This document shows positions 5,271-23,027 of a DNA stretch of 33,200 nucleotides, piece by piece (position 1 is the stretch's first letter; each line of letters begins with the position of its first letter). The notes under the pieces are model-generated. The model saw only the letters and a program-made list of their open reading frames with translations, searched no databases and was not told where the DNA came from. Origin of the DNA: a virus. Both the position numbers and the translations under genes were made by a program. Location: IMG/VR virus record IMGVR_UViG_3300029319_007864, positions 1-33,200 of that record; one strand, written 5' to 3'.

Positions 5271-5735
5271 TTACTCCGTTGTGACGGTATCGTCTTCACC
5301 GTTGATTGCTGCTTTCATAGCGTGCCAACACAAAGTAGCACATTTGACTCTCATAGGAAATTCACGTACACCACCGAATACAACTAACTTACCAAGTTTG
5401 GTTTCATCTATTGGAATAGAAATATCCGACATAACCATGTCGTGAAATTCGTGAAACAGTTGTTCTGCTTCTTCGACATATTTGCCCTTTACAGCGGCGG
5501 TCATTATAGAACCAGATGCTTTTGAGATTGCGCATCCCGAACCTTGAAAAGCGATGTCGTGAATCTTACTATCATTCAACATGACATGCACGTAAAAATG
5601 ATCACCACATAGAGGATTATATCCCTCTTTCGTATAGGTAGGATAGTCACTTGATAACTCCATCGTTCTAAAATTTTTTGGATTTTTATTGTGTTGAAGA
5701 ATTGTCTCTTGATATAAGTCGGTCAACATCGTCAT
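5271..5735 (-). CDS. sufU: SufU-type Fe-S cluster scaffold / sulfur-transfer protein
   Basis: The 154 residues match the IscU/NifU-N family and specifically the SufU branch. Ligand motifs are all present: PLCGD (C43, D45), GSGCAISKAS (C68) and RVKCATLC (C132). The stretch ETKLGKLVVFGGVREFP before the last cysteine is the insertion that distinguishes SufU from IscU. Proteins of this family accept sulfur from a SufS-type cysteine desulfurase for cluster assembly. A second cysteine, C136, follows the canonical one. No desulfurase or other suf gene is in the window, so it would act with host enzymes. It is the first gene after the promoter at 5768-5796 and has a GGGGA ribosome site. I regard it as an auxiliary metabolic gene. 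Confidence 0.88.
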   Translation of the reverse strand: MTMLTDLYQETILQHNKNPKNFRTMELSSDYPTYTKEGYNPLCGDHFYVHVMLNDSKIHDIAFQGSGCAISKASGSIMTAAVKGKYVEEAEQLFHEFHDMVMSDISIPIDETKLGKLVVFGGVREFPMRVKCATLCWHAMKAAINGEDDTVTTE

Positions 5736-8571: not shown

Positions 8572-9549
8572 TTATAAATATCGTTCTACTAAAGAAAGAA
8601 ACTCCTTTGCCCTATATTCGGTTCTATGATACTTTAACAATTTAGTGAACCCATTATTTGCAATTTTCATTGCCTTGTCTGGATTTATTATATAATACTT
8701 TGCTTTATCTAACAACTCCTCATTACTATCGTAGATAACAACATCTTCCTCATCTACAAAAGTATTATTCCATACATAAGGTTCAATTGGTTGATACATA
8801 ACCATACAACCATTAGCTAGACTCTCCCAAAAGCGACCTGTTTGTCGCGCCTCTCCACAACCGTAAGCGTCAACACTTATTCTTGTATCCAATAGTTTTT
8901 TAAAGTAACCACTGAAATGCCGATCACCTGTATCAATAGTAGTAAGTGCATTACCCCCTCTATACTCCCCAACAAAAACAGATTGATTGTTTTCAAACTC
9001 TTTTATAAGTGATTCCATAATGTCATGTCGCCATGGTCGTTTTTCACAAGTAGACATAATACATACTAAATCATTCGTTTTGTTAGACCATATATTTCTA
9101 TGAGAAGAATTAGGTTTGGTAAAATATCTGTCTTCTGCTGCAAAAATAAGAGATTGAATATTTTCACCTATGGGGTTTCCGTTTATCTCTAAAATTGAGC
9201 CGTTTAATTCTCTCTTTATATATAGTTTGTATTTATTCGGGTCATCTTGGTATGTGTAGTAATCACTACCATCTAAAAATATATCTATGTCATTTTGTAA
9301 CTCTGATACCAGTGGCTTTATAATCTGTTGATATTTTGGCTCCAAAGCAGAATGACATAACATCACATAGTCTGCCATCTTGGCTACTTGTATTTGTGTC
9401 TTAAGGTTTTGTATAGTGTTCTTGCAATAGTTATGACTTGTGTTAGAAAACACTTTTATACCGTCTAACTTATTAAGACCCTCAATAAGTGATGCAGTTG
9501 AATGACAGTAATGGTGTGGCGATATTACGAATAAATTTTTGGTTTTCAT
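8572..9549 (-). CDS. CgeB-like glycosyltransferase (GT-B fold)
   Basis: The 325 residues resemble the CgeB/spore-maturation-type glycosyltransferases. The N-terminal half is a divergent Rossmann domain. The C-terminal half has the typical pattern DAYGCGEARQTGRFWESLANGCMVM (about 225-250), then a strand/loop with YDSNEELLDKAKYYIINPDKAMKIANNG and a C-terminal helix containing YRAKEFL. In such enzymes this half binds the nucleotide sugar; the acidic residue before SLANGC contacts it. No signal peptide is present, so it is cytoplasmic. The start overlaps the stop of the preceding small basic gene by 4 bases (ATGA). It probably belongs functionally with the glycan genes that lie upstream in transcription. 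Sugar and acceptor are unknown. Confidence 0.72.
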   Translation of the reverse strand: MKTKNLFVISPHHYCHSTASLIEGLNKLDGIKVFSNTSHNYCKNTIQNLKTQIQVAKMADYVMLCHSALEPKYQQIIKPLVSELQNDIDIFLDGSDYYTYQDDPNKYKLYIKRELNGSILEINGNPIGENIQSLIFAAEDRYFTKPNSSHRNIWSNKTNDLVCIMSTCEKRPWRHDIMESLIKEFENNQSVFVGEYRGGNALTTIDTGDRHFSGYFKKLLDTRISVDAYGCGEARQTGRFWESLANGCMVMYQPIEPYVWNNTFVDEEDVVIYDSNEELLDKAKYYIINPDKAMKIANNGFTKLLKYHRTEYRAKEFLSLVERYL

Positions 9550-10196: not shown

Positions 10197-10312
10197 TAGT
10201 CTATCCACCTTCTATGGTTTATTAAGTGCCAACATCTATGTTTTAAAACTTCCCATATTAATTTTATTAAACCGTCTGCTTCATAGTGACCTGTGTTAAC
10301 TATAAGTTTCAT
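10196..10312 (-). CDS. Micro-ORF (38 aa) between gmhA and the 53-aa gene
   Basis: A 38-residue frame fits exactly between two genes: its ATG overlaps the gmhA stop (ATGA at 10309-10312) and its TAA overlaps the next ATG (TAATG). The peptide starts MKLIVNTGHYEADGLIKLIW and ends in a tryptophan- and histidine-rich basic tail. The exact fit suggests a translated gene or a coupling peptide. By length alone it could be chance. Confidence 0.4.
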   Translation of the reverse strand: MKLIVNTGHYEADGLIKLIWEVLKHRCWHLINHRRWID

Positions 10313-10875
10313 TCTATCACTAGCTCCTCTACTATTCCGTGTAATATAATTTCACTAGTTAACTCTACGACACCATAATTATAACTATCTATATGAATGT
10401 AATCGTGTTGACTAGTGCCAGGCGAAAATGGTGGTGCTCCATCCATACCAAAAATAGATAAGGTACGAGCATCAAAATCGTTAGCATAATATATCGCATT
10501 AAGAATGTTTTTACTTTTACCCGAAGAAGATATAGCTACAAGATAATCCGTCTTATTAAAACCGTTCATTTTCAACCACTCGACTAATGCATCTTCTTGA
10601 CTATAGTCGTTGGTAAGGGCGGTTTGCAGACTATTATTACTTAGCGTATATGCTTTCACCTTACATCTCTTATTAAGATCAGTTGAGATATGCTCTGCAA
10701 TAGCATGACTTCCGCCGTTACCAATAATAAATATCCTATTATCGCCCAAACGAAAATTTATATTTGTGTTTTGAAACACCTTCCATATACCTATAACCTT
10801 ATCAACGATATCTTGGTCAATGTTTTCGATAGCCTCTTGCATTTCTTCAAAGTATTTTTCTGCATATATTACCAC
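10309..10875 (-). CDS. gmhA: Sedoheptulose-7-phosphate isomerase, GmhA-like (SIS domain)
   Basis: The 188-residue protein has one SIS domain. GmhA converts D-sedoheptulose 7-phosphate to D-glycero-D-manno-heptose 7-phosphate, the first step to nucleotide-activated heptose. The phosphate-binding motifs GNGGSHAIAEH (52-62) and SSSGKSKNIL (116-125) are clear, and a C-terminal helix ELTSEIILHGIVEEL supplies the E and H residues typical of GmhA. The start is a GTG at 10875 with GGAG 8 bases upstream, overlapping the hddA stop by 7 bases. Adjacent hddA makes the heptose assignment much stronger than a generic SIS protein. It is cytoplasmic. Length agrees with bacterial GmhA (about 190). Confidence 0.85.
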   Translation of the reverse strand: MVIYAEKYFEEMQEAIENIDQDIVDKVIGIWKVFQNTNINFRLGDNRIFIIGNGGSHAIAEHISTDLNKRCKVKAYTLSNNSLQTALTNDYSQEDALVEWLKMNGFNKTDYLVAISSSGKSKNILNAIYYANDFDARTLSIFGMDGAPPFSPGTSQHDYIHIDSYNYGVVELTSEIILHGIVEELVIE

Positions 10876-11879
10876 GATAATGTCTCCACATTAATAATAA
10901 CTCTACTTCCATATTTATCTATCTCAAATGGCATTAACTTATACCCACCTAATTCAGTTAACACTTTTTCTACTGGTTGTCGTTCTAACTTATCTATATA
11001 AAACATCATAAAGCCACCACCACCTGCTCCAATAAGCTTACCGCCTTTAGCGCCTGCAGATATGGCTGACTTATATATGTCTATTATAGAGTCGTTTGCA
11101 ATCTTTTTAGAGAATTTTAATTTAAGTTCCCAATTCCTTCTTAACGCTTCACCAATATAATTAAATCTTTTATGATCTATATGATCTCTCAACCAATAGG
11201 ATAGTTCTACATTTTTCATCATTGATTTAATAGCTTCTTTATTATCCACTAAATTTACAGATTGGTCTTCTAAGATGGGTGCGCTTTCCCTTGTTATACC
11301 TGTGTAGAACAAATGAAGGTCTTCGGAAATAGAACGAAGCTCATTATCGGTGTCTACTAATCTGCGAACCAATATGTCATCTGAGTCACTGAAAATTAAT
11401 TCATTAAGGCCACCAAACGCTGCAGCGTATTGATCTTGATACCCAATGGGTTTGTGACACAAAGTCATTTCTATATGTGAAGCTTGATCTGCTAAATCTC
11501 TTTTAGTAACAAGATTACCCTCTAACGTATGAATGGCATTTAGTAGACCGACAAGAAAACTTCCACTACTACCAAGGCCACTTCCTTTGGTTGGTATATC
11601 TGCCCAATTAATAATCTCTAAACCATAATCTATACCAAGATAAATTAAAGTTTCTCTAATAAAATCGTGTTTAATAGCGTGAATAGAATCTACATCAACC
11701 ACTTCATTTTCAGAGTATTTTAGATATATCTTATTGTCACTGCGTTTTTTTACTAAAACATAAACATACTTGTCAATAGCAGCGTTAATACAATGCCCAC
11801 CATGTGACACAAAATATGACGGCATATCGGAACCGCCACCAGTGAATGTTATTCTTAATGGAGTTTTTGTTATAATCAT
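10869..11879 (-). CDS. hddA: Heptose-7-phosphate kinase, HddA-like (GHMP family)
   Basis: This 336-residue GHMP kinase should phosphorylate D-glycero-D-manno-heptose 7-phosphate at C1 with ATP. Family marks are the N-terminal TPLRITFTGGGSDMP (6-20), the ATP-binding loop KGSGLGSSGSF (98-108) and the C-terminal GGKLIGAGGGGFMMF. The opening RITFTGGGSD is typical of HddA and of fucose/galactose-type kinases, and the neighbouring GmhA gene favours heptose. The ATG at 11879 overlaps the preceding stop (ATGA), and the gene runs into gmhA. HddA belongs to GDP-heptose routes in bacteria, whereas the nucleotidyltransferase found in this window resembles the ADP-heptose enzyme, so anomer and nucleotide remain open. 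Confidence 0.85.
   Translation of the reverse strand: MIITKTPLRITFTGGGSDMPSYFVSHGGHCINAAIDKYVYVLVKKRSDNKIYLKYSENEVVDVDSIHAIKHDFIRETLIYLGIDYGLEIINWADIPTKGSGLGSSGSFLVGLLNAIHTLEGNLVTKRDLADQASHIEMTLCHKPIGYQDQYAAAFGGLNELIFSDSDDILVRRLVDTDNELRSISEDLHLFYTGITRESAPILEDQSVNLVDNKEAIKSMMKNVELSYWLRDHIDHKRFNYIGEALRRNWELKLKFSKKIANDSIIDIYKSAISAGAKGGKLIGAGGGGFMMFYIDKLERQPVEKVLTELGGYKLMPFEIDKYGSRVIINVETLSW
10884..10887 (-). promoter_or_regulatory. Ribosome binding site for the GTG start of gmhA
   Basis: GGAG on the minus strand lies 8 bases before GTG 10875 and inside the end of hddA. This supports an unusual GTG start and tight coupling of the kinase and isomerase genes. The next in-frame ATG lies 33 bases further on, with no such site. 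Confidence 0.55.
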
Positions 11880-12178
11880 ATTCGTGCAGTGAGTTCTTTT
11901 ATTCTATTAATTGTATGTGTCAGTTCAACAACTTTAGACTCTAATGAATCTACTTTATCTTTAGCATCACGATACTCTCCCCAAGCCTTTGTGGCCTCTT
12001 CTTGCCAATCAATATCACGATCAAGTTTCACACCAGATACCTCGTCATAGTTTTTTATCTCCCGTCTATAAATGGTCTTACCATTATCGGGGCTTTCGTA
12101 AATATACTTCTTACCATCATTTGTAGCCTTGAGATTATCTATTCTTTCTCTACCTTGTCTATCAACACTAACCGTCAT
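11876..12178 (-). CDS. Small coiled-coil protein (100 aa)
   Basis: The protein has 100 residues. The first half is rich in charged residues and aromatic/K-Y patterns (KKYIYESPDNGKTIYRREI). The second half (about 60-98) is a regular heptad helix, DAKDKVDSLESKVVELTHTI, that probably forms a coiled coil. ATG 12178 has a GGGAGATG ribosome site and overlaps the end of the epimerase gene by 11 bases; its stop overlaps the hddA start (ATGA). No family is recognised. Its position inside the sugar operon does not tell its job. Confidence 0.65.
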   Translation of the reverse strand: MTVSVDRQGRERIDNLKATNDGKKYIYESPDNGKTIYRREIKNYDEVSGVKLDRDIDWQEEATKAWGEYRDAKDKVDSLESKVVELTHTINRIKELTARI

Positions 12179-13157
12179 TTCTCATCTCCCATAAACCTTT
12201 AACAGTTTTTTCTACACCTTCTTCAAATGAAATTTTAGGTTGCCACCCTAATTCATCTTTAGCTTTTTGTATGTTAGCTAATGTAATCTGAGCTTCGTTT
12301 GGTTGATCGTCTTTATATTCTACTAACGCCACAGTGCCATCCATAATTTTTCTACAAGATTCTTGAACTCTGTGATATACCTGTAAGATAGAGTAATTTT
12401 TTCCAAAGCCAGCATTGTAAGTTTCACTTCCAGACTTACCACCTCTTGATTCTAATGCAGCCATATGAAAATCAGTTAGATCGTCAATATGCAAAAAATC
12501 TCTTCGCTTTGAACCATCACCATATATTATAGGAATTTTATTATCAAATAGTCGTGATGCAAAAGACCCAACCACAGGAGGTATGTCTCTCTCAAGATTC
12601 ATAGAGGGGCCATAAATATTGGTGTAACGAAAAAGCGTTGTTCCAAAACCATGTGACTCACCATAACTTCTTACAAATTGTGAAGCTGCCATTTTAGTAA
12701 TAGCATAATAACCCATAGGAGTAATTGTGTTTGGTGCATCGGTTTCTGCAGTGGGATAATTTTCTTCACCTATAATATTATCATACTCTGCAGAGGTATC
12801 GGAAAAATAGAAATGTTTTGCACGGAGTTTCTTTGCTTGTTTTAAAATGTTTAATGTACCGTTAACATTAACATCCAACGCCTCTTCTACATTATCTCTA
12901 CACCAATATGTTTCACCTCTTGCTGCAAGGTGCCACACATAGTCGATGGTTTGATTTATATTATCACAAACATTTTCTGCGCGAATATCAGTAGCTCTAA
13001 ATTTAAAATTTGGGTGATCAATAAAATCGTTCATGTTCTCCATGAAACCACATATCAAACTATCTACTCCCCAAACTTGATGACCTTCTTTTAAAAGTCT
13101 ACGAACAAGATTGCTACCAACAAAACCTGCACAACCCGATATTAGATGTCTAGCCAT
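12168..13157 (-). CDS. NAD-dependent sugar epimerase/dehydratase (extended SDR)
   Basis: This 329-residue extended SDR enzyme acts on nucleotide sugars. The NAD-binding glycine motif GCAGFVG lies at 8-14, the catalytic YxxxK at Y151/K155 (YYAITK), and the region SDTSAEYD at 119-126 replaces the usual SSSxxYG. FRYTNIYGP and a C-terminal TLANIQKAKDELGWQPK segment are typical of UDP-glucose epimerase/dehydratase-type members. It is the first gene after the promoter at 13199-13227 and precedes hddA and gmhA. In a heptose pathway it might act as a heptose epimerase, but no specific substrate can be read from the sequence. Confidence 0.8.
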   Translation of the reverse strand: MARHLISGCAGFVGSNLVRRLLKEGHQVWGVDSLICGFMENMNDFIDHPNFKFRATDIRAENVCDNINQTIDYVWHLAARGETYWCRDNVEEALDVNVNGTLNILKQAKKLRAKHFYFSDTSAEYDNIIGEENYPTAETDAPNTITPMGYYAITKMAASQFVRSYGESHGFGTTLFRYTNIYGPSMNLERDIPPVVGSFASRLFDNKIPIIYGDGSKRRDFLHIDDLTDFHMAALESRGGKSGSETYNAGFGKNYSILQVYHRVQESCRKIMDGTVALVEYKDDQPNEAQITLANIQKAKDELGWQPKISFEEGVEKTVKGLWEMRNDG

Positions 13158-13198
13158 TATTAGTTATCCTTTTTACAAAATTATAATTTACATACTAT

Positions 13199-13227
13199 AA
13201 TATAAGCAATTTTTTTATATATGTCAA
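13199..13227 (-). promoter_or_regulatory. Sigma70-type promoter for the epimerase-hddA-gmhA transcript
   Basis: Minus-strand TTGACA (13222-13227), a 17-base spacer and TATATT (13199-13204), followed by ATAGTATG. It lies in the 66-base gap after the glycosyltransferase stop and about 40 bases before the epimerase start. It shares hexamers, spacing and the TATATTATAGTAT extension with the copy at 5768, so it is very likely the same early promoter class. Confidence 0.82.
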
Positions 13228-14312
13228 GTGGCTTTCAATAATTCTTTGTAAATATCTAATTGAGCATTACCCATAAGCTCTGGTGTTACCTTACACCATT
13301 GCATATATGCATTGTTACTTAGTGTTTCATAGTCTATTTGTTTGTCTATGAAAGCTTTCATTATTCTCGCATATTCTTCTACATCGTTAGGTAGAACTAT
13401 AAACCCTGCATCACCAGTAGTTTCCATGTGACCATTAAAGTTTTCCCCGTAGTGAGATATTAATGGAACTCTATGTGCAAACCCTTCAAAGTGTGCTGCT
13501 GAATTACATTCACCATCACGCCGCGCATGAGCTTGAACGTCTATTGTATTATAGAATTGTGAAATACGAACTTCACTTGTGGTTCGTTCAATAAACTTTG
13601 CATTTTTAATACCAAGTCGCCTAATATCATCTCGACATTTATCGGAAGGCGCAACTAATACAAAGTAAACATTATCACGTTCTACTTGCGCATAAGCTCT
13701 GATATTTATGTTTTCATATATACTTTCATCATCTCTACCAATTCTACCAAACACAAAAGCATCATCGGGTATACCAAGCTCTTCTCTTAAGTTTTCTGTA
13801 GAGTATGGGCTTTCAATTGGGTTTCTAACTACATGATGATTCTTTGTGTCTTGAGTGCCAGCTAACCATTGTATATGTTTTGATACATAAATTACTTTAC
13901 TTATATCAATCGTATTATCTTGATTACCAAATACGGCAGTTGAAACAAAATGGCGAGTATGCTCTTTTATTTCTTTCACGAAGGGAAATTCGGGTATACC
14001 AGCCGAATATCTGTGCAATATAAACGGCTTCTTTTCTTTTATGATGTTTAACAACTCTGAAGGAGACTCGTAACATAACATTTTCTCCGCCCCTACTATT
14101 TCTTTAAAGTAAGGTTCTCTTGTGTTTTCTACACCTTTTTTATAAGCTACATAATGTTCAAAAGTATTATCTTTTACAAAGTGTCTACAAAATATTTGAC
14201 TCATCTTTTCTGTGCCACCCATCGTAAGTTGATTATGATGGTGAATCACAATTGGTTTTCTTCTTGATATATCAGATGTCTGTAATGATAGTGAAGATAT
14301 TGATCGTAACAT
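13224..14312 (-). CDS. GT4-like glycosyltransferase, paralogue of the 916-aa protein's C-terminus
   Basis: This 362-residue GT-B glycosyltransferase has the N-terminal HHNQLTMGGTEK (25-36), a domain-linking region with DDAFVFGRIGRDD (183-195) and a donor-binding region with HARRDGECNSAAHFEGFAH (262-280). It matches, over its whole length, the last 380 residues of the 916-residue protein encoded upstream (LREELGIP, FVFGR-GRDD, VRIS-FYNT, ARRDGEC/SRKDGEC), so the two arose by duplication. The ATG at 14312 overlaps the preceding stop by one base. Its stop lies over the -35 box of the promoter for the next transcript. It is cytoplasmic. Donor and acceptor are unknown; heptose-derived glycan is suggested by context only. 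Confidence 0.82.
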   Translation of the reverse strand: MLRSISSLSLQTSDISRRKPIVIHHHNQLTMGGTEKMSQIFCRHFVKDNTFEHYVAYKKGVENTREPYFKEIVGAEKMLCYESPSELLNIIKEKKPFILHRYSAGIPEFPFVKEIKEHTRHFVSTAVFGNQDNTIDISKVIYVSKHIQWLAGTQDTKNHHVVRNPIESPYSTENLREELGIPDDAFVFGRIGRDDESIYENINIRAYAQVERDNVYFVLVAPSDKCRDDIRRLGIKNAKFIERTTSEVRISQFYNTIDVQAHARRDGECNSAAHFEGFAHRVPLISHYGENFNGHMETTGDAGFIVLPNDVEEYARIMKAFIDKQIDYETLSNNAYMQWCKVTPELMGNAQLDIYKELLKAT

Positions 14313-15178
14313 TAGATTGCCATTGTTGAACCATCTGGTTGGCGAACATCATTCAAAACTTTATGTGGTATCTTCACACCCAAATATTTACAGATGTTAT
14401 GACCCTTGGTAGCATTGTTATCCTTTAACAATTGCTTTTTAATTTCGTCATCATGTTCATGGATAAGCTTATATTTTTCTGTATACCTATATCTTGGGTG
14501 ACCATCCCTTTCCATTTGAAACCACGCCTCTATAATTTTAGGATCAATATTATTCATAAGATCATCATTTGTTTTATTGTTGACAAGAACACGCGGAATG
14601 CCATCACTTACTGCACGATTTAAGGAATAAAGCATCCACTCTTCCATATTTTCAAATCCAAGCTGAGTACCGCTCATTTGTTTCTTAAGCCAATCATTTT
14701 CTTTACGACTATTCAAAACCTTATCTTGTATGGGTAATAGTTTTTCTAAAAACTCTCTTCGGAAAAACATACAATCTGTCATAGCCCAATGATGAGTTTG
14801 GTGATAACCTGCCGCAAACTGCTTACCACTTTCAATAAAATCGCTCATAGCTGTTCTAAAACCATTTTGTGTCAGAAACCAAACATCAAAATTAAATATA
14901 GCTACATAAGGTCTATATCCACAACGTGCAAAATCCAAACCTGCATTAAAAGAATCTAAAGCTCCATATCCATAACCTGTATTTTCAGGCAGATATATAA
15001 AAGTGTTTTCTCCTACACCAGATGGGCAGTGATTTTGATCGCCATTAAAGACGGTGGTAATCCATAACTTAGTGCCTATGTCTGGATAGTTATACCTCAT
15101 AATTTCAAGGTTGTGTCGATAATCTTGGGTTCGTTGGCATCCAATAAGTATTACATGCACATCTTTTGGGTCAAACAT
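14312..15178 (-). CDS. GT2-like glycosyltransferase (GT-A fold)
   Basis: The 288-residue protein has a GT-A pattern: an N-terminal VHVILIGCQR strand, ENTGYGYGALDSFNAGLDFA (about 65-84) like the NxGxGxGxNxG of rhamnosyltransferase-type GT2 enzymes, and FNFDVWF (95-101) in the place of the metal-binding DXD. A later EEWMLYSL helix fits the acceptor side. The frame could be extended to a TTG at 15196, but AAAGGAG lies 5 bases before ATG 15178, so I use that start. It sits between the two GT4-type genes and shares a one-base overlap with the downstream one. Specificity is unknown. Confidence 0.72.
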   Translation of the reverse strand: MFDPKDVHVILIGCQRTQDYRHNLEIMRYNYPDIGTKLWITTVFNGDQNHCPSGVGENTFIYLPENTGYGYGALDSFNAGLDFARCGYRPYVAIFNFDVWFLTQNGFRTAMSDFIESGKQFAAGYHQTHHWAMTDCMFFRREFLEKLLPIQDKVLNSRKENDWLKKQMSGTQLGFENMEEWMLYSLNRAVSDGIPRVLVNNKTNDDLMNNIDPKIIEAWFQMERDGHPRYRYTEKYKLIHEHDDEIKKQLLKDNNATKGHNICKYLGVKIPHKVLNDVRQPDGSTMAI

Positions 15179-15183
15179 ATTTT

Positions 15184-15190
15184 CTCCTTT
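15184..15190 (-). promoter_or_regulatory. Ribosome binding site deciding the start at 15178
   Basis: AAAGGAG on the minus strand is 5 bases upstream of ATG 15178 and would be inside the coding region if the longer TTG start were used. Confidence 0.65.
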
Positions 15191-15202
15191 AAACAAAACT
15201 TA

Positions 15203-17953
15203 TTATGATAATTCTTTATATAAATCTAAATGTTGTTGAGTAATAACTTCTGGTTTAGCCTGTCTTTCCCATCTACTAACACAATTCTTACTCATTGTAT
15301 CGTAATCTATTGTTCCATCTGCAAACGCCCTCATAATTCTTGTATACTCATCTTGGTCGTTCTTAATGGAATTAGTGCTGTCTTCACAAGTAAAATTAGC
15401 AACACCTATACTACGTGAATACTCTAAGATATCTACAATACTAGATGGGTTTAAATCTTGCCACACATTATGAAAGTTATCTCTTCTATTAACAACAAAA
15501 CCACAGTTACCAATTTCTTGTATGTGACCATTGTAAGGTATACCATAATGACTCACGACTGGCTTACCGTGTGAGAAACCCTCCCAAATGTTGCCAGGAT
15601 TACACTCACCGTCTTTCCTACTATGAGCTAATACATTTAGTGTGTTGTAGAACTTACTGATTCTAACGTCATCTAAGGTCTTATCAACGTAACGGATATT
15701 AGTTATACCTAAACTTTCAGCTTTTCTTTTCAGAGTTTCTGACGGTGATAAAGCTACAAAATATAAACTATCATCTTCTAACTGTGCGAACGAAACAAGA
15801 TTAATAGGATCATAAATATCATTATCATCTCTTCCCAAACGACCGAATACAAAAGCATCTTGAGGTATATCTAGTTCTTCTCGTAAGTCTTCATTGGTAA
15901 GAGGAGCTTCTACAGGAATGGCTATCAATCTTGTATTATGATTAAACACACCTGCACAATGTTGCATATTGTTAGAGATATATATAGCTCTACTTAGATT
16001 AATACTTTCATCTACGTGACCAAATATAGAGGTAGATATTACGTGTTTACACTGCTCAACTATAGGTGGAACAAACGGCATTTCTGGTTGACCAGATGTT
16101 TGACGATGCATTATGAACGGTTTTATCTCTTTAATAACTTCGTAAAACTCTGGAACTGATGCATATGGTATTAGATTTTCTCTACCAAGAATTTCTTCAA
16201 AAAATGGTTCTCTTTCTAACTCACCGTGTGCTTTGTATGCCAACACATGGTGAAAATCCTTATCCATCTTCTTAAAGTATTTACATAAAATCTGCACAAC
16301 CTTGGCGGTTCCACCAATACCTAAATGATGAAGATAGTGAACAACAAGTTTTTTATTAAAAGCAAGGTTTATATTTTTCTTAACCTGTTGAGCTGTCATC
16401 TTATATTGATCTTGTTCTCTTTTAATACCGGCCTTTTGTCTCTCTAATGTTTTTGGGTGATTACAATGAACACCAACAATAGCTGCATCTTTTTTAACAT
16501 TGATAATTCTTTCATGGGTTCTGCCAGCGAACCTACAATGAGATTTGAAAATCCTTTGTTGGTAGTCGGGATAATTAACCCAATTAAAATAACTTAAATT
16601 CCAAGCTTGTTGATCAGCAAATTCTTGAGTTATACCTTCTACTGTGTTAATGCGTGGTACATTAATACAATCAACACCACGATTATTTGCATCTCTGATA
16701 TACCAACATAGTTGATTCCAAAATATCGGCTCATAGGTTTCATCAGCATCAATCCAAATTCGCCATTCTTGATTTGCTGCATCCAGTGAATTATTTTTTT
16801 GAATTTCAAAATTATCATCCCATTTTCTATGAATAAGATTAGCGTTATACTCCTCTATAATACTTATCGTTTTGTCTGTTGACCCACCATCCGTAATTAC
16901 AAAATCATCTGTTATATATGGTGTGACATTTTCCATTGTATCTCTTACACATTCTTCATCGTTATACGTAATCATACAAACAGAATATTTTGTATCTGGT
17001 CTTTTGTTGTTTTCATATAAGTAGAAAAACTTATCAAAGATTTCAGACGGCTCTTCTTGCCCCTTCATTATTCTACCGGCTAAACTTGAATCACCTGCAG
17101 GTATTGTGGCTACTTTAGTTTGAACACAATTTGTTTCTATATAACAAGTATTCCAAAATGGGTGATTAGTTGGGGGTGTATGGTTCTGAATAAAGAAATG
17201 ATTTTTAGTATAAAATACAACAGTAGGGATATTAAGACGACTAGTAACTTCCCAATCCCATGAATTACATGCAATACATCCCGATACATTTTTAAGTATA
17301 TGAATAGTGTTTTCTACATCAACACCCATAGCATCAATATAATCTATACGCCGTCTATCACAATATTCTCTTAATCCCCAATCCTCATCATTGATACCAA
17401 CAAATGTTGGCGTTAAACCTTTTTCATTCAATAACTCACAAATCTCTTGCCAAAACTCTTTCTTCCAAAACCTACCATTGTTTACGTCACTTTCAAAACC
17501 TTCTGCATTACCATCTTTGGTCAATGGGTGAATAGCTACGCCACTCTTTTCTTTAACCTGCCTAACAATATCTTTTGCTTGTTCTGTAGGTTCACCTGTC
17601 TTATACTCATAAGGAAACTGCATATCGTAAGGTGCAAAGTGAGGTTTTTTATTCTCAAATATCTCTTCACAAAATGACCAATCTTCAAACTTATCATCTG
17701 ACTTTACGACCTTGTTTAATAAGAAGTCACGCATAGATGCCAGTTGATTATGAAAAGTTAGATTTTTAATTAGAGCAGCTTCGTAACCCTCTCTCTCTAA
17801 TTGCTCTTTAGAGAATTGTGGTGACTTACCAAAACCACCTAACCAAAATTTAATTTTATAGTCGGGATATTTCTCTTTCAAGGCAGGTAGTCTTGTAATG
17901 GCTGATAAAGTATCACCATACCCTGCTAACTGTAGTATATGAAATGTCTTCAT
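15203..17953 (-). CDS. Three-domain glycosyltransferase GT9-GT2-GT4 (916 aa)
   Basis: Three glycosyltransferase domains are fused. Residues 1-300 resemble GT9 heptosyltransferases: GYGDTLSAITRLPALKEKYP near the start and GCIACNSWDWEVTSRLNIPTV (225-245) near the donor site. Residues 322-515 are a GT2 domain, with SVCMITYNDEE, DGGSTDKT (355-362) and IDADE (401-405). Residues 536-916 are a GT4-like GT-B domain with GIGGTAK, DDAFVFGRLGRDD-like and SRKDGECNPG motifs, paralogous to the 362-residue gene downstream. The protein could add several sugars in order without releasing the chain. Its ATG overlaps the stop of the upstream methyltransferase (TAATG). There is no signal peptide or membrane segment. 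The order of action and the acceptor are not visible. Confidence 0.85.
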   Translation of the reverse strand: MKTFHILQLAGYGDTLSAITRLPALKEKYPDYKIKFWLGGFGKSPQFSKEQLEREGYEAALIKNLTFHNQLASMRDFLLNKVVKSDDKFEDWSFCEEIFENKKPHFAPYDMQFPYEYKTGEPTEQAKDIVRQVKEKSGVAIHPLTKDGNAEGFESDVNNGRFWKKEFWQEICELLNEKGLTPTFVGINDEDWGLREYCDRRRIDYIDAMGVDVENTIHILKNVSGCIACNSWDWEVTSRLNIPTVVFYTKNHFFIQNHTPPTNHPFWNTCYIETNCVQTKVATIPAGDSSLAGRIMKGQEEPSEIFDKFFYLYENNKRPDTKYSVCMITYNDEECVRDTMENVTPYITDDFVITDGGSTDKTISIIEEYNANLIHRKWDDNFEIQKNNSLDAANQEWRIWIDADETYEPIFWNQLCWYIRDANNRGVDCINVPRINTVEGITQEFADQQAWNLSYFNWVNYPDYQQRIFKSHCRFAGRTHERIINVKKDAAIVGVHCNHPKTLERQKAGIKREQDQYKMTAQQVKKNINLAFNKKLVVHYLHHLGIGGTAKVVQILCKYFKKMDKDFHHVLAYKAHGELEREPFFEEILGRENLIPYASVPEFYEVIKEIKPFIMHRQTSGQPEMPFVPPIVEQCKHVISTSIFGHVDESINLSRAIYISNNMQHCAGVFNHNTRLIAIPVEAPLTNEDLREELDIPQDAFVFGRLGRDDNDIYDPINLVSFAQLEDDSLYFVALSPSETLKRKAESLGITNIRYVDKTLDDVRISKFYNTLNVLAHSRKDGECNPGNIWEGFSHGKPVVSHYGIPYNGHIQEIGNCGFVVNRRDNFHNVWQDLNPSSIVDILEYSRSIGVANFTCEDSTNSIKNDQDEYTRIMRAFADGTIDYDTMSKNCVSRWERQAKPEVITQQHLDLYKELS

Positions 17954-18624
17954 TAAATTATAACCTTTTGATTGTCAAAACAGATGATACCAGTGCCTGT
18001 ACCAGCAGAGTATATACTATCTGCAATATTATACTTTCTTACATCAATACTATTCCACCAAGCTAACATATCTGGGTGGCTGTTTTCTACTTCCCTACCA
18101 GTGCCAATATCATCGCAAACCATTACCCCTTTCCAATCGTTCTCAATTAAGAAGTCTGATACTATTTTTTCTTGTAAACCATCGTGTGGGTCAACATCAA
18201 GAAATATGAGTTTGCTTGATAAAAATATTTCCTTATCACTTATAGCTTGTTTGGGATTACCTTTTATGTCAGTTTTATCGCCTATACTTGAAAAATATAC
18301 CTTTCTTGGTATATCGTCATCCAAAGTCATTCCATTCCAATTAGACTCTAAACAATTACCTATAATATACTTAATATTATCAAAGTTGTCAAATTTTTCT
18401 GCGGCATCTGCACTATGAGAAATATCATAAGTGTATATACGATTAGTTTTATTATAAGCTAAAGCAACTGCACTGTCACCATCGCGTGTACCTAAATCAA
18501 CAATTATAGAATCATTAAAGTATGTTGATAGGTGAGATAACAATACGGAGTAGTGTGGTCTTTTTACCCCATATTCATCGGGGCTTACATTACGAATATG
18601 GTATTCGGATATATTTAATTCCAT
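17953..18624 (-). CDS. Class I SAM-dependent methyltransferase (Methyltransf_24-like)
   Basis: The 223-residue methyltransferase has SAM-binding IVDLGTRDGDSA at about 41-52, an acidic strand-end RIYTYDIS, and IFLDVDPHDG followed by GVMVCDDI, as in small-molecule or sugar O-methyltransferases of the CmcI/macrocin type. The open frame extends to 18702, but the first 26 residues would overlap the nuclease gene by 77 bases. ATG 18624, two bases after the nuclease stop, begins MELNISEYHIRNV and is preferred. It is coupled to the 916-residue glycosyltransferase by a one-base overlap. A methylated sugar is the likely product; DNA or protein methylation is less likely. Confidence 0.75.
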   Translation of the reverse strand: MELNISEYHIRNVSPDEYGVKRPHYSVLLSHLSTYFNDSIIVDLGTRDGDSAVALAYNKTNRIYTYDISHSADAAEKFDNFDNIKYIIGNCLESNWNGMTLDDDIPRKVYFSSIGDKTDIKGNPKQAISDKEIFLSSKLIFLDVDPHDGLQEKIVSDFLIENDWKGVMVCDDIGTGREVENSHPDMLAWWNSIDVRKYNIADSIYSAGTGTGIICFDNQKVII

Positions 18625-18625
18625 T

Positions 18626-19024
18626 TTAATCTTTGTTTCTTTCGGATAAAATAGCTTGAGCTTTTGCTCTGGCTTCTTCTTTATTTCCACCATGATATTC
18701 ATAAGCGTGACCTTCTTCTATCAAAATATCATTTACATTCCTATCGTCATCTAAAAGTATTTCTCCAAGCACTCTACCAAACTTACCAAGACCATGTGAA
18801 ATCAAGATAAATTGATTTTTGTTTTCTTTGATCAATTCCTTCAATCGTGCTTTTGCAGCTAATCCACGCTTCTTTTCTTCCTTGTCTCTTGTTCTACTTT
18901 CCCATGTGTCAATATTTACCAACCTAACTCTTTTTCTTACCCAAACAGAAAACCCTAAATCTATGTCTGCGTCTAAAGTATCACCATCAACTATTTTTAT
19001 CAAGTTTGCCTGATATTCGTGCAT
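18626..19024 (-). CDS. Thermonuclease-like nuclease (SNase fold)
   Basis: The 132-residue protein is an SNase-type OB-fold nuclease. IVDGDTLDADIDLGF, RKRVRLVNIDTWESR (catalytic R and E) and GKFGRVLGEIL (second catalytic R) match the staphylococcal nuclease pattern, so the active site is intact. No signal peptide is present, so it should act inside the cell, perhaps on host DNA or RNA. The start is ATG 19024 (MHEYQANLIKIVDGDT), not the longer TTG-like opening at 19045, because AAAGGAG lies 6 bases upstream. It sits between two methyltransferases in the glycan operon, with one- to two-base gaps on both sides. Its presence here is probably an insertion of a DNA-metabolism gene into the operon. 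Confidence 0.85.
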   Translation of the reverse strand: MHEYQANLIKIVDGDTLDADIDLGFSVWVRKRVRLVNIDTWESRTRDKEEKKRGLAAKARLKELIKENKNQFILISHGLGKFGRVLGEILLDDDRNVNDILIEEGHAYEYHGGNKEEARAKAQAILSERNKD

Positions 19025-19025
19025 T

Positions 19026-19883
19026 CTAATCTCCTTTACAAACAACCCTTATTTCATTCTTAGCACCGAACAAACTTTCATACTGTTGTTTATTTTTTAT
19101 TTCTTCCATATGAACATCGTACATATTATAACCATACTGTTTTATAGTTTCATATATTTCCATTAAATTATCGTTGTATAACTTTAATAAATGTGAATGG
19201 ATTTCTAAAAAAATTAATGGCCTGTATTTCATTATTGTTTCTTTAGCACCCTTTAACACTCTTTGTTCATAACCTTCTACATCAATCTTTAAAGTATCTA
19301 AGTCAAACCCATTATTAAAACCGGGATAATTTTTATTTTTTCTTTCTCTTTTATCCTCAAAAACCATATCTAACCCATACTCTTCATCTTCATTACCCAT
19401 TTCAGCAATCCAAGTAAAATCGTCAAGAGTGGCTATTCTACCGCCTATCTCTTTCTTTTTTACTATTTGAAAATTAGGGTCTTCTTTTTCAAACCTAACA
19501 ACAAAAGTTCCAGACTCTTCGGTAAGAACACTTACGACTCCATTCTTATCACCAACGAACATAGGAAAAAGTTTAATACGATCAAACCAATCATTGTGAT
19601 TAATAATCTCTACAGCATTAGTTAAACCTTCTGGTGATGGTTCAAAACAATAAGATCTTTTCATTTGATCATCGTTGTTATTTAAACAGAATACATATGA
19701 AAAGAAACCTACATTACCTCCAACATCGTATAAGCTCTTTCTATCTTTAGTTAGCTCAATAAAGTTTTTTACTTCCCAACCTTGCCCGTTCTCCTTATCC
19801 CACTCTTCATTATAGGCATCAACCTTATCTGCATGTCGAATGGGTAAATCTATTTTTAACTTATCTTGTATGCTGTATAACAT
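19026..19883 (-). CDS. FkbM-family methyltransferase
   Basis: This 285-residue SAM-dependent methyltransferase belongs to the FkbM family, which commonly methylates sugar hydroxyls in polysaccharides and natural products. Motif I is LYDVGGNVGFFS (51-62), FEPSPE (80-85) follows, and the family signature LKIDVEGYEQRVLKGA lies at 198-213, followed by PLIFLEIHSH. The ATG at 19883 has AAGGA 7 bases upstream and overlaps the nucleotidyltransferase gene by 23 bases. It is one of three separate methyltransferases, plus a fourth domain in the 807-residue protein, which suggests a heavily O-methylated glycan. Confidence 0.82.
   Translation of the reverse strand: MLYSIQDKLKIDLPIRHADKVDAYNEEWDKENGQGWEVKNFIELTKDRKSLYDVGGNVGFFSYVFCLNNNDDQMKRSYCFEPSPEGLTNAVEIINHNDWFDRIKLFPMFVGDKNGVVSVLTEESGTFVVRFEKEDPNFQIVKKKEIGGRIATLDDFTWIAEMGNEDEEYGLDMVFEDKRERKNKNYPGFNNGFDLDTLKIDVEGYEQRVLKGAKETIMKYRPLIFLEIHSHLLKLYNDNLMEIYETIKQYGYNMYDVHMEEIKNKQQYESLFGAKNEIRVVCKGD
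19031..19037 (-). promoter_or_regulatory. Ribosome binding site deciding the nuclease start
   Basis: AAAGGAG on the minus strand lies 6 bases before ATG 19024, within the end of the FkbM-type methyltransferase gene. Confidence 0.65.
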
Positions 19884-20388
19884 GATTATTCCTTGATATT
19901 TTTTCTACAATATTAGTGGTAGATACACCTTCTACCATAGGCGCTGTTATTACCTTACCACCATAGCTTTCTACAAACTCTTGACCTACTATTTGTTCTT
20001 GGATTGCGCAAGGTTTGGTACTGTAATTACCACCTTTTACTAACACTTTAGGTTTTATTTTTTGTATTAGAGGAAGAACGCTTTCAGTGTCGAACAACAC
20101 AATATAGTCAATAAAACTTATAGCGTTCAAAATAGATAATCTATTATCTTGATCCATTATGGGGCGATCATTACCTTTTAACTTCTTAATAGACAAATCG
20201 CTGTTAACACCAACTATAATCTTACTATGCCAATTATCTAAAGTAAAACCTTTTCGGGCACGATAATTATGACAAAATTGAAATAACTCTATATGACCCT
20301 TATGTATGATGTCAAAACAACCATTTGTAAAAATGCCTCCTTGAATCTGAAAATCTTTTATATCATAAATTTTATCATACCAAGACAT
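19861..20388 (-). CDS. rfaE2: HldE C-terminal/RfaE2-type heptose-1-phosphate nucleotidyltransferase
   Basis: The 175-residue cytidylyltransferase-fold enzyme has FTNGCFDIIHKGHIELF (20-36, HxGH at 29-32), GVNSDLSIKKLKGNDRPIMDQDNRL and a later VKGGNYS. This combination is characteristic of HldE-C/RfaE2, which adenylates D-glycero-D-manno-heptose 1-phosphate to ADP-heptose. The kinase half of HldE is absent; HddA elsewhere in the window supplies a kinase. An ORF start at 20415 would overlap the previous gene. ATG 20388 lies 5 bases after that gene's stop, with GGA nearby, and gives the expected N-terminus. It is a likely step of the phage heptose pathway; other sugar phosphates or glycerol 3-phosphate are less likely. 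Confidence 0.83.
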   Translation of the reverse strand: MSWYDKIYDIKDFQIQGGIFTNGCFDIIHKGHIELFQFCHNYRARKGFTLDNWHSKIIVGVNSDLSIKKLKGNDRPIMDQDNRLSILNAISFIDYIVLFDTESVLPLIQKIKPKVLVKGGNYSTKPCAIQEQIVGQEFVESYGGKVITAPMVEGVSTTNIVEKISRNNHVIQHTR

Positions 20389-20393
20389 TTTAA

Positions 20394-21434
20394 TTATCCG
20401 TTGTGTGGTTGCCACTCAGTTGAACGGCGATATAACTCTTTACAGGTTATATCAATACCTTCTTCAATACTTACTTGATGCTTACCTAAATATTTATGCA
20501 TCTGTGTAACACTAGCACATCTTCTTCTTACAAGATTAGGGTCATGTTCCTCATACTCCACATTAATCTTAGGATTATCCATCAAACTTTTCATTCTATC
20601 AGAGATCAAATGAAATAGCTCTTTAACTGACGTTTCAAAACCGGTACCGACATTTATAAAAACATTTTTACACTCGGTGTTTTCCATCGCTGCTATATTA
20701 GCTCTACCTATGTCTCCGCCAAAAATCATATCCATTGTTTGTTTGCCGTCACCATATATTGTGATAGAACCGCCAGTAGCTATAGCATTAACCCACTTAG
20801 GAACAATTTGTGTATATACATTAGATAAACTTTGTCTCGGACCATAAACATTAAAATAACGGAGGCCGACAATATCTAACCCAAACTCCATAAACGATTT
20901 TGCAATATATTCTAACGCAACCTTAGATGTTCCGTATAATAATTTACAATCATCAAATGGATAATCCTCTGTTGTAGGAGTTATTTCGGGAGTTCCATAT
21001 ACCGAAGCAGAAGAACTATAGACTACCTTCTTTACTCCGAACTCTAAACACAATTCAAACAACAATGCACTAGCGTATACATTTACCTTAACACTTCTAC
21101 TTTTATATTTGTTAGAATCTAAAGTAAGGTATGATGCAGTATGGAAAACATAATTAGGTTTATGTTTTGAGAATATTTCTCTCATTACATCTTCAACGCT
21201 AACATCCGCAACGATAGGAATTATTCTTACATTCTTATTGTCAGCAATAGAATAAGCTTCTTTTAGATTATCTACATTACCATTGTATAGATTATCTACA
21301 CATAAAATAGTAATATCATCTTTTTGTTTAGCTAACTCTTCAACGATATAACTACCAATATGACCATGTGAACCAGTAACTAAATAAACTTCACCTTGTG
21401 GATCGACATTGCCACTAACAAAATTATCTACCAT
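20394..21434 (-). CDS. NAD-dependent nucleotide-sugar epimerase (extended SDR)
   Basis: This 346-residue extended SDR resembles UDP-hexose 4-epimerases (GalE/WbpP type). It has GSHGHIG at 21-27, SSSASVYG at 140-147, catalytic Y167/K171 in YGTSK, LRYFNVYGPRQ and YGDGKQTMDMIFGGD with the ending typical of this group. It differs clearly from the other SDR at 12168. It starts one base into the end of the cupin gene and is followed after 5 bases by the RfaE2-type gene, so it could epimerise the activated heptose or a second sugar. HldD-specific residues cannot be claimed. Confidence 0.83.
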   Translation of the reverse strand: MVDNFVSGNVDPQGEVYLVTGSHGHIGSYIVEELAKQKDDITILCVDNLYNGNVDNLKEAYSIADNKNVRIIPIVADVSVEDVMREIFSKHKPNYVFHTASYLTLDSNKYKSRSVKVNVYASALLFELCLEFGVKKVVYSSSASVYGTPEITPTTEDYPFDDCKLLYGTSKVALEYIAKSFMEFGLDIVGLRYFNVYGPRQSLSNVYTQIVPKWVNAIATGGSITIYGDGKQTMDMIFGGDIGRANIAAMENTECKNVFINVGTGFETSVKELFHLISDRMKSLMDNPKINVEYEEHDPNLVRRRCASVTQMHKYLGKHQVSIEEGIDITCKELYRRSTEWQPHNG

Positions 21435-22015
21435 TACTTTACAACTCTTTCATAGTTCCAACCGGCAATAAAAGGATCTAATCTATCTTCATCTTCACCA
21501 GTATATTTGTTAGTGACATGATAGATAAGTATAGCTGGTTCGTTGGTGTAGTTATAACAACCGTGCCATAAAAAACGAGGAATGAAAAGAGGGCCGTCTT
21601 TCGCGGTTCTTTCAGAAAGATAATGCCACTCTACTTTACCCTCATCAACAGGCCATTGTTGTAGTTGTTGTGAGCTTAGTCGATCAGCTTCTTTCAACTC
21701 TTTCCAATTAGTTAATAACTCTTCTCTTTGTTCATAAACATTAGCCGCATCCTCTTCTGACATTCCAAATTCTTCTAAATCATCACCGCCCATATATGGT
21801 GCATTACACACACCAATTTTCAAACTACCCTTAATAACAAACTGATAATCGTCTTGATACATATGTCTATGCCAAAGCGCTGCAGCTCCTGGCTCTACTA
21901 TTGTAACATTAATATCACCCTTACCAATCTCTGGAAAAATATCACAATATCTTGTTCCTCTATCGTCTACGTGAAACCTTCCACCGTGTTTCATTTCTTG
22001 TGCTGGCTGTGACAT
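21434..22015 (-). CDS. RmlC-like cupin (sugar 3,5-epimerase type)
   Basis: The 193-residue cupin has an N-terminal GRFHVDDRGTRYCDIFPEI, a histidine pair in ALWHRHMYQDDYQF and a C-terminal IPRFLWHGCYNYTNEPAILIYHVTNKY...DP segment that resembles the dTDP-4-dehydrorhamnose 3,5-epimerase ending. Between them is an extra acidic stretch of about 60 residues (ca 75-130) that ordinary RmlC lacks. The reaction is probably epimerisation or isomerisation of a keto-sugar nucleotide. The ATG overlaps the HAD stop by one base with GGAG upstream, and the SDR gene follows in the same way. An RmlD-like reductase lies 1 kb upstream. No RmlA or clear RmlB is present here. Confidence 0.68.
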   Translation of the reverse strand: MSQPAQEMKHGGRFHVDDRGTRYCDIFPEIGKGDINVTIVEPGAAALWHRHMYQDDYQFVIKGSLKIGVCNAPYMGGDDLEEFGMSEEDAANVYEQREELLTNWKELKEADRLSSQQLQQWPVDEGKVEWHYLSERTAKDGPLFIPRFLWHGCYNYTNEPAILIYHVTNKYTGEDEDRLDPFIAGWNYERVVK

Positions 22016-22461
22016 TAGTCATCTCCTCTTTTAAGGTGTTCGTTTGGGTCAATCCCAAGCTCATCAAAAACTTTTTGAGCGTAAGGAAAAAATGGATCAA
22101 AGATTTGAACATTTTTGTGATGTTCTTTTGTTTCTATTCTACTTAAAGCTCTTTCTTCATCTGCTAACCAATCAAGTGCATTAATTGCCTTATCATCTAC
22201 AAAAACATCAACACCGCCAGGCTTTAACCCTACAATCAATTGATCATAAGGAATACCAAAATCGTTTAATTGTTTTTCTGTGAACTCTCTCCAATCCGTT
22301 TTACTACCTGCTCCACGGGCTGTCATAATTATAATATGATCACCACGCTCCTTATATCGTCTTACCTTCTCTATTGCCTTTGGAATAGGTGTGCTATTTT
22401 TATAATCACTACCATTCGTTTTTACAAGAGTATTATCAAGATCCATACACCATCTAATCAT
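22015..22461 (-). CDS. HAD-family phosphatase
   Basis: The 148-residue HAD-type hydrolase has the nucleophile motif DLDNTL (7-12; D7, D9), motif II in IIIMTARG (T47) and a later VFVDDKAI acidic pair (motif IV), with QLIVGLKPGG in between. Such proteins accompany capsule and LPS genes. Its likely job here is to remove the C7 phosphate from heptose 1,7-bisphosphate, the GmhB step, but this is inferred from context; sequence features specific to GmhB are not visible. It is coupled to the cupin by a one-base overlap and follows the methyltransferase gene after 11 bases. Confidence 0.78.
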   Translation of the reverse strand: MIRWCMDLDNTLVKTNGSDYKNSTPIPKAIEKVRRYKERGDHIIIMTARGAGSKTDWREFTEKQLNDFGIPYDQLIVGLKPGGVDVFVDDKAINALDWLADEERALSRIETKEHHKNVQIFDPFFPYAQKVFDELGIDPNEHLKRGDD

Positions 22462-22472
22462 GTCAATTATCC

Positions 22473-23027
22473 TTATTTGCTTAAATCAACCATCCACTGT
22501 CTACCAAGTATCTCTAATTTAGTAGTATCAAAAAACCACTTGACTGCTTCTGAAACTCCGTTAGCACCGATATCATCACCTGCTATAATACCATCTTCTT
22601 TTACTCTTACCATCCAAGATGCTAAGTCAGCTTTAACAGAATCTCTATCATGGCTCGCGTCTATAAAAACAAAATCCAAAGAGTCTGGTTCATACAAGAA
22701 TGATGCCTCTACACTACTCATTCTTACAGGATTAATTACGCCCTTTACCGGCTCAATGTTTTTCAAAAAATCTTCATATAGCGTATCTATGTTTACATTA
22801 TCATTATCACGGTGTTCTTCTGAACCAAGCCAATGATCTACACAATCAAATTTAATATTTTTTCCCGAATTTATAATCTCAACCGCCATATAAACAGCAC
22901 TTTTACCTAAAAAAGTTCCTACCTCTACAAAATGAGAGCCTGACTCAGCTCTATCAATCACATTTTTATATAGAGAAAATAAATCTCCTTGAGAAAAACC
23001 ATATACATCATCGTGAAAATGTTCCAT
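22473..23027 (-). CDS. Class I SAM-dependent methyltransferase (184 aa)
   Basis: The 184-residue protein has motif I FVEVGTFLGKSA (33-44), an acidic strand end FDCVDHW, VRMSSVEAS and FIDASHDRDSVKADL (121-135) with GIIAGDDIG. This is the pattern of Methyltransf_24 proteins that act on sugars and small molecules. The ATG at 23027 directly follows the RmlD stop, and GAGGAAG at the end of that gene is its ribosome site. It resembles the methyltransferase at 17953 in family, but the two are not close duplicates. A sugar O-methyltransferase role is inferred. Confidence 0.75.
   Translation of the reverse strand: MEHFHDDVYGFSQGDLFSLYKNVIDRAESGSHFVEVGTFLGKSAVYMAVEIINSGKNIKFDCVDHWLGSEEHRDNDNVNIDTLYEDFLKNIEPVKGVINPVRMSSVEASFLYEPDSLDFVFIDASHDRDSVKADLASWMVRVKEDGIIAGDDIGANGVSEAVKWFFDTTKLEILGRQWMVDLSK

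Follow-up and report, generated by a model that had tools for sequence, protein, structure and literature searches.

The window analysed here, the entire 33.2 kb virus record IMGVR_UViG_3300029319_007864, comes from an uncultivated marine T4-like phage and carries a sugar-biosynthesis island that resembles bacterial enzymes for activated seven-carbon sugars. Our best explanation, held with about even confidence, is a glycan-biosynthesis island in which an SIS isomerase, a GHMP kinase and a HAD phosphatase would make heptose 1-phosphate, with activation by a phage or a host enzyme. The sugar genes form an unbroken minus-strand run flanked by LamG-type proteins and replication genes, and the same record also encodes UvsX, gp32, ThyX and a 5'-3' exonuclease. 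UvsX shares less than 40% identity with its best phage matches in the collection compared, and a megablast search of the island against phage records returned zero matches. The core enzyme genes named in the original prediction are real and lie where it had placed them, all on the minus strand:

10309-10875, minus strand: GmhA-like SIS isomerase, D-type subfamily (H62, D66, E171, H179); SIS_2 46.7 bits, gmhA 62 bits
10869-11879, minus strand: HddA-like GHMP kinase; NF049969 153 bits
19861-20415, minus strand: RfaE2/HldC-like nucleotidyltransferase; TIGR02199 143.7 bits, and tree placement
22015-22461, minus strand: HAD phosphatase, EcbF/AfhF family (phrog_1238), candidate omega-phosphatase; TIGR01689 56 bits

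In the proposed route, heptose 7-phosphate would be formed from sedoheptulose 7-phosphate by the SIS enzyme and phosphorylated at position 1 by the GHMP kinase, after which the EcbF/AfhF-type HAD would strip the 7-phosphate to leave heptose 1-phosphate. Activation of this product may fall to the RfaE2-like enzyme where a phage encodes one, and would fall to a host nucleotidyltransferase elsewhere. Short-chain dehydrogenase/reductases (SDRs), a cupin and an RmlD reductase would modify the sugar nucleotide, and phage glycosyltransferases and methyltransferases would build a surface glycan with the modified sugar. This proposal is based on family assignments, catalytic residues, gene neighbourhoods and the predicted SIS and HAD folds, from which we infer every substrate, the step order, the activating enzyme and the glycan.

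Profile searches placed the SIS protein, the kinase and the nucleotidyltransferase nearest to heptose models of NCBIfam, and the isomerase is placed there by structure as well. NCBIfam equivalog cut-offs served as the family test and none of the heptose models attained its own, indicating that the four core enzymes are distant members or relatives of these families. Because three of the four are nearest to heptose families and the relatives of the kinase lie in heptose-type clusters, heptose is the best reading. This part of the near-complete pathway originally proposed stands, whereas a single mixed route is only a possibility and the claims of heptose epimerases and of a second GT9 protein are not supported.

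The SIS_2 protein is GmhA-like, gmhA being its best model. Its predicted structure (pLDDT 93.6) has the GmhA fold over its full length (5i01; VIA Z 23.6, root-mean-square deviation 2.0, 177 residues) and is clearly more distant from the arabinose-5-phosphate isomerase KdsD (2xhz; VIA Z 16.4). The nearest structures are those of GmhA enzymes and of the related DiaA (Z 19-24), and the best solved relatives are heptose enzymes. H179, the equivalent of GmhA His180, is invariant in 34 sequences. In a related phage island (L177:12976-14269), the SIS gene is directly followed by a gene for an apparent TalC-type transaldolase, identified by eye. Such enzymes belong to the chemistry of sedoheptulose 7-phosphate, and this neighbour fits a sedoheptulose phosphate substrate.

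The kinase is likewise HddA-like, as predicted, NF049969 (HddA) being its best-scoring NCBIfam model even though its score remains under the cut-off of 600 bits. Its best PDB matches are WcbL 4usm and HddA 4n3o (123-150 bits), and R9 and D149, invariant in 10 phage kinases, correspond to WcbL R13 and D163, which are reported as catalytic residues (PMC4691232). To survey bacterial neighbourhoods, the 80 best bacterial relatives of the kinase were fetched. Their loci hold an HddC-type guanylyltransferase (67 loci), SIS (61) and GmhB (49), with all three beside the GHMP kinase in 44; an RfaE2-type enzyme is found in none of the 80. Given these neighbourhoods, the kinase looks like a member of the guanosine diphosphate (GDP)-heptose branch, as had been suggested. 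The phage has the SIS isomerase and GHMP kinase in common with this branch as known from Campylobacter jejuni and B. pseudomallei (WcbL), but its HAD differs and is not GmhB. Kinase and SIS genes are adjacent, an arrangement conserved in most related phage contigs, and no HddC-type guanylyltransferase (PF00483) was found in the 18 related contigs. Separately, cyanophage Bellamy (NC_047838; L026:9552-11525) may hold a GDP-heptose cassette: an HddA-like kinase (279 bits), annotated simply as kinase, is encoded close to an NTP_transferase protein.

A HAD able to fill the GmhB step had also been predicted. The HAD is present, but it is not of GmhB type: TIGR01689 (EcbF-BcbF) is matched instead and its NCBIfam matches include no GmhB model. 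Its structural model is clearly closer to AfhF (9iqw; VIA Z 12.4) than to E. coli GmhB (2gmw; Z 8.3). Among solved proteins, 1xpj and 9iqw are nearest to it, and 9iqw bears the PDB title 'phage HY126 encoded D-arabinose 1,5-diphosphate phosphatase AfhF'. A DxDxT motif, a lysine, an acidic pair and the profile match to 9iqw place it in the EcbF/AfhF family, and D7, D9, T11, K80 and D90 are invariant across 20 homologues. We infer that phages may use this family to dephosphorylate aldose 1,omega-bisphosphates at the terminal position, whether pentose or heptose. An EcbF/AfhF HAD accompanies the RfaE2 gene in 22 of the 80 nearest viral loci, mostly no more than some 2 kb away, a count made without a background control, and is fused to an RfaE2-type enzyme in L115:6417-7079 and L123:7992-8702. 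This count and the two fusions make the family a testable candidate for the missing viral phosphatase. A further HAD-nucleotidyltransferase fusion (L022:16370-17122) has a nucleotidyltransferase of another clade. Canonical GmhB-type HADs lie beside viral RfaE2 loci in L127, L134 and L169, and L169 adds a PfkB kinase and SIS, giving a complete canonical set on one virus contig.

The same HAD family suggests a different product, namely an activated octose, hexose or pentose (for instance D-arabinose), which might serve to modify DNA as in RB69-type phages. RB69 gp051 is a family member, matches AfhF and is located among replication genes, with a KdsD-like SIS, a kinase-like protein and a nucleotidyltransferase close by; the window island, too, adjoins UvsX and gp32. 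The phage HY126/RB69 arabinose route has the same four-step logic (SIS, kinase-like protein, EcbF/AfhF HAD, nucleotidyltransferase) on a pentose, a parallel that also speaks for the proposed heptose route. We nevertheless consider this alternative unlikely. The window SIS is GmhA-like rather than KdsD-like and does not match that of RB69, the kinase-like protein of RB69 belongs to a different fold family, the RB69 nucleotidyltransferase is of NTP_transferase type and that route has no glycan island, while the abundant glycosyltransferases and methyltransferases of the window are easier to reconcile with a surface glycan than with a DNA base.

The predicted RfaE2/HldE-C-type nucleotidyltransferase is borne out by RfaE domain II, matched at 143.7 bits against 28.7 bits for a glycerol-3-phosphate cytidylyltransferase model and below the TIGR02199 cut-off of 181.5 bits. 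HxGH and C-terminal STT motifs are both present (GCFDIIHKGH and GVSTT). The C-terminal motif, MVEGVSTT, is without the arginine of STTR5 and does not match the promiscuous STTR5 HENase motif, (F/L)XXGRSTT, given in commentaries on Tang et al. 2024, where this arginine is tied to use of cytidine or uridine diphosphate (PMC11461863, PMC11573728). A PfkB-type HldA-like kinase, often fused, is held by 62 of the 80 nearest viral nucleotidyltransferase loci and by neither the window nor its related contigs. The pairing of an RfaE2-type enzyme with a GHMP kinase is confined to the window lineage (window, L020, L011, L018); L208 and cyanophage SynMITS9220M01 were rejected as independent cases, their nucleotidyltransferases forming a separate, long-branched clade. 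With the adenosine diphosphate (ADP)-heptose branch, the phage shares an RfaE2/HldC-like nucleotidyltransferase and a GT9 enzyme but has no specific HldD. In L018 (2958-3425) and L019, the same nucleotidyltransferase gene is without the C-terminal STT and its product is possibly inactive; a frameshift was discarded as the cause, no intact STT continuation being present in other frames. An apparent ammonium transporter (L011:3389-4519, by eye) is inserted in the sugar island of L011 between the nucleotidyltransferase and an SNase.

Several observations weigh against the heptose route in the form proposed. The SIS score stays far under the 209 bits required by the TIGR00441 (GmhA) equivalog model, Asp stands in place of the catalytic residue numbered Glu65 in E. 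coli, and Gln172 of GmhA is probably Glu, judged by spacing from the invariant His. The closest characterised relative of the HAD acts, by its PDB title, on arabinose 1,5-diphosphate. Among known families, HddA yields the alpha-1-phosphate and RfaE2/HldC uses the beta anomer (PMC4691232, PMC10680097). Finally, three related islands have the kinase without a recognisable nucleotidyltransferase and two have the nucleotidyltransferase without the kinase. The Asp does not signal decay, since all 47 bacterial SIS hits from GmhB-containing loci have it at this position.

The last of these points stems from a comparison of eight related islands, whose contigs are fragments. Nucleotidyltransferase, kinase, SIS and HAD occur together in the window, G009 and G016/17. 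Islands G003 and G015 hold kinase, SIS and HAD and lack the nucleotidyltransferase. The kinase is also present in G011-13, where two of the three contigs add a HAD and both SIS and nucleotidyltransferase are missing. G023 combines nucleotidyltransferase, SIS and HAD and lacks the kinase, and G020/22 hold the nucleotidyltransferase and neither kinase nor HAD. Kinase and nucleotidyltransferase are thus together in three of eight islands, with about 3.75 expected under independence, and lie 6-8 kb apart. The HAD tracks the kinase/SIS set, not the nucleotidyltransferase, and is present in well-covered kinase-bearing islands. Searches for PF00483, PF12804 and PF01467 in the nucleotidyltransferase-free relatives returned only part of a different large protein. 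Gene absences are weak evidence, because the contigs are fragmentary and in L110 the nucleotidyltransferase sits elsewhere in the genome, outside the sugar island.

This distribution, the separation of the two genes and the opposed anomer specificities would also be explained by two half-pathways in one island, a real contender that we nonetheless find less than probable. SIS, kinase and HAD would make alpha-heptose 1-phosphate for a host HddC to convert to GDP-heptose, and the RfaE2-like enzyme would turn host beta-heptose 1-phosphate into ADP-heptose for the GT9 enzyme. The exclusive pairing of bacterial kinase relatives with HddC fits this scheme, as do L129 and L133, where a nucleotidyltransferase and GT9 are present and no kinase or HAD was found. 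Its host enzymes are hypothetical, the absences behind it are soft, and the window itself carries all four predicted activities. Its first three steps overlap those of our best explanation, and the difference concerns activation. A single mixed route is possible, but with kinase and nucleotidyltransferase varying independently across the eight islands we treat it as doubtful. The HddA-type kinase and EcbF/AfhF HAD would here feed the RfaE2-type enzyme, with the anomer logic broken or one specificity changed and the HAD serving as a general viral omega-phosphatase. If true, such a route would connect two heptose branches thought to be separate, alpha (GDP) and beta (ADP).

It is very improbable that the enzymes are decayed or serve in other roles and form no working pathway. 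Every score is under its equivalog cut-off, the L018/L019 nucleotidyltransferase is without its STT motif and SIS is missing in several relatives, but even distant homologues retain the catalytic residues of kinase and HAD unchanged, the reading frames of the window enzymes are intact and island order is conserved.

Surrounding the core genes are four glycosyltransferase proteins, several methyltransferases and further proteins:

8572-9549, minus strand: GT1-type glycosyltransferase, on the opposite flank of the island; PF13524 51 bits
11876-12178, minus strand: small protein of unknown function between SDR and kinase; synteny, kept in several relatives
12168-13157, minus strand: extended SDR (SDR12); Pfam Epimerase 158 bits
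13224-14312, minus strand: GT4-type glycosyltransferase; PF00534 34 bits
15203-17953, minus strand: multi-domain glycosyltransferase with GT2 core (PF00535), N-terminus weakly GT9-like
19026-19883, minus strand: FkbM-type methyltransferase; PF05050 42 bits
20394-21434, minus strand: extended SDR (SDR20); Pfam Epimerase 151 bits
21434-22015, minus strand: cupin protein that travels with SDR20; Cupin_2 25 bits, slightly under gathering score, and synteny
22473-23027, minus strand: class I methyltransferase; PF13578 59 bits
23028-23948, minus strand: RmlD-type 4-keto-sugar reductase; PF04321 224 bits
23960-24409, minus strand: DUF4254 protein adjoining the GT9 protein; PF14063 30.9 bits
24411-26834, minus strand: GT9 domain and methyltransferase protein; PF01075 47.4 bits, PF13489 63 bits

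The SDRs, cupin, RmlD reductase, methyltransferases and four glycosyltransferase proteins make a modified surface or virion glycan likelier than a DNA base, and most likely the phage decorates a surface glycan with the product. The two predicted SDR epimerases are indeed extended SDRs, but heptose specificity is not supported: they score 97 and 116 bits with the HldD model TIGR02197 (cut-off 274.6), and GalE or deoxythymidine diphosphate-glucose dehydratase models outscore heptose_epim for both. SDR12 is a neighbour of the kinase in almost every related contig and is 37% identical to the SDR of bacterial cluster L060, which there lies beside a GHMP kinase and HddC; the best solved relative of SDR20 is 6dnt. 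Of two proteins predicted to have GT9 domains, only 24411-26834, which lies beyond the 10309-22461 region of that prediction, holds one (97% hhalign probability with E. coli WaaF); the N-terminus of 15203-17953 was rejected, having no Pfam GT9 match and a weak profile-profile match.

In itself, a phage-encoded route to activated heptose has precedents, since viral heptose enzymes have already been published. A published listing also places gmhA with the well-characterised viral metabolic genes (PMC9238414). According to commentaries on Tang et al. (2024, Science, via PMC11461863, PMC11573728), virus-encoded isomerase, kinase and nucleotidyltransferase were reported to make ADP-heptose, and one commentary describes viral heptose sets without a phosphatase. 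By these accounts, the window shares the three enzyme kinds with that set but has a GHMP-type kinase and an EcbF/AfhF HAD candidate where the phosphatase was reported absent. In cyanophage SynMITS9220M01, for which heptose-related lipopolysaccharide genes have been named (PMC7378029), HddA-like kinase, SIS, HAD and SDR, all of which the window has too, are contiguous; unlike in the window, the nucleotidyltransferase of this cyanophage is fused to the HAD and falls in another clade. What appears new here is the unusual kinase-nucleotidyltransferase mix and the EcbF/AfhF HAD as candidate for the 'absent' viral phosphatase.

The HAD family also bears on annotation. PHROGs names phrog_1238 'phosphoheptose isomerase', and RefSeq uses this label in P-SSM2, P-TIM68, Bellamy and RB69, where the labelled proteins align to the HAD family (DxDxT-type motif), not to SIS. 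Viral gmhA counts built on this label may therefore be inflated.

The cupin, RmlD-type reductase and DUF4254 protein were absent from the original prediction. Two further island proteins (14312-15196 and 17953-18702) have no significant Pfam, NCBIfam or PHROGs match, the former being kept in most relatives read. A NifU-like Fe-S assembly protein (5271-5735) is encoded beside ThyX in the replication block.

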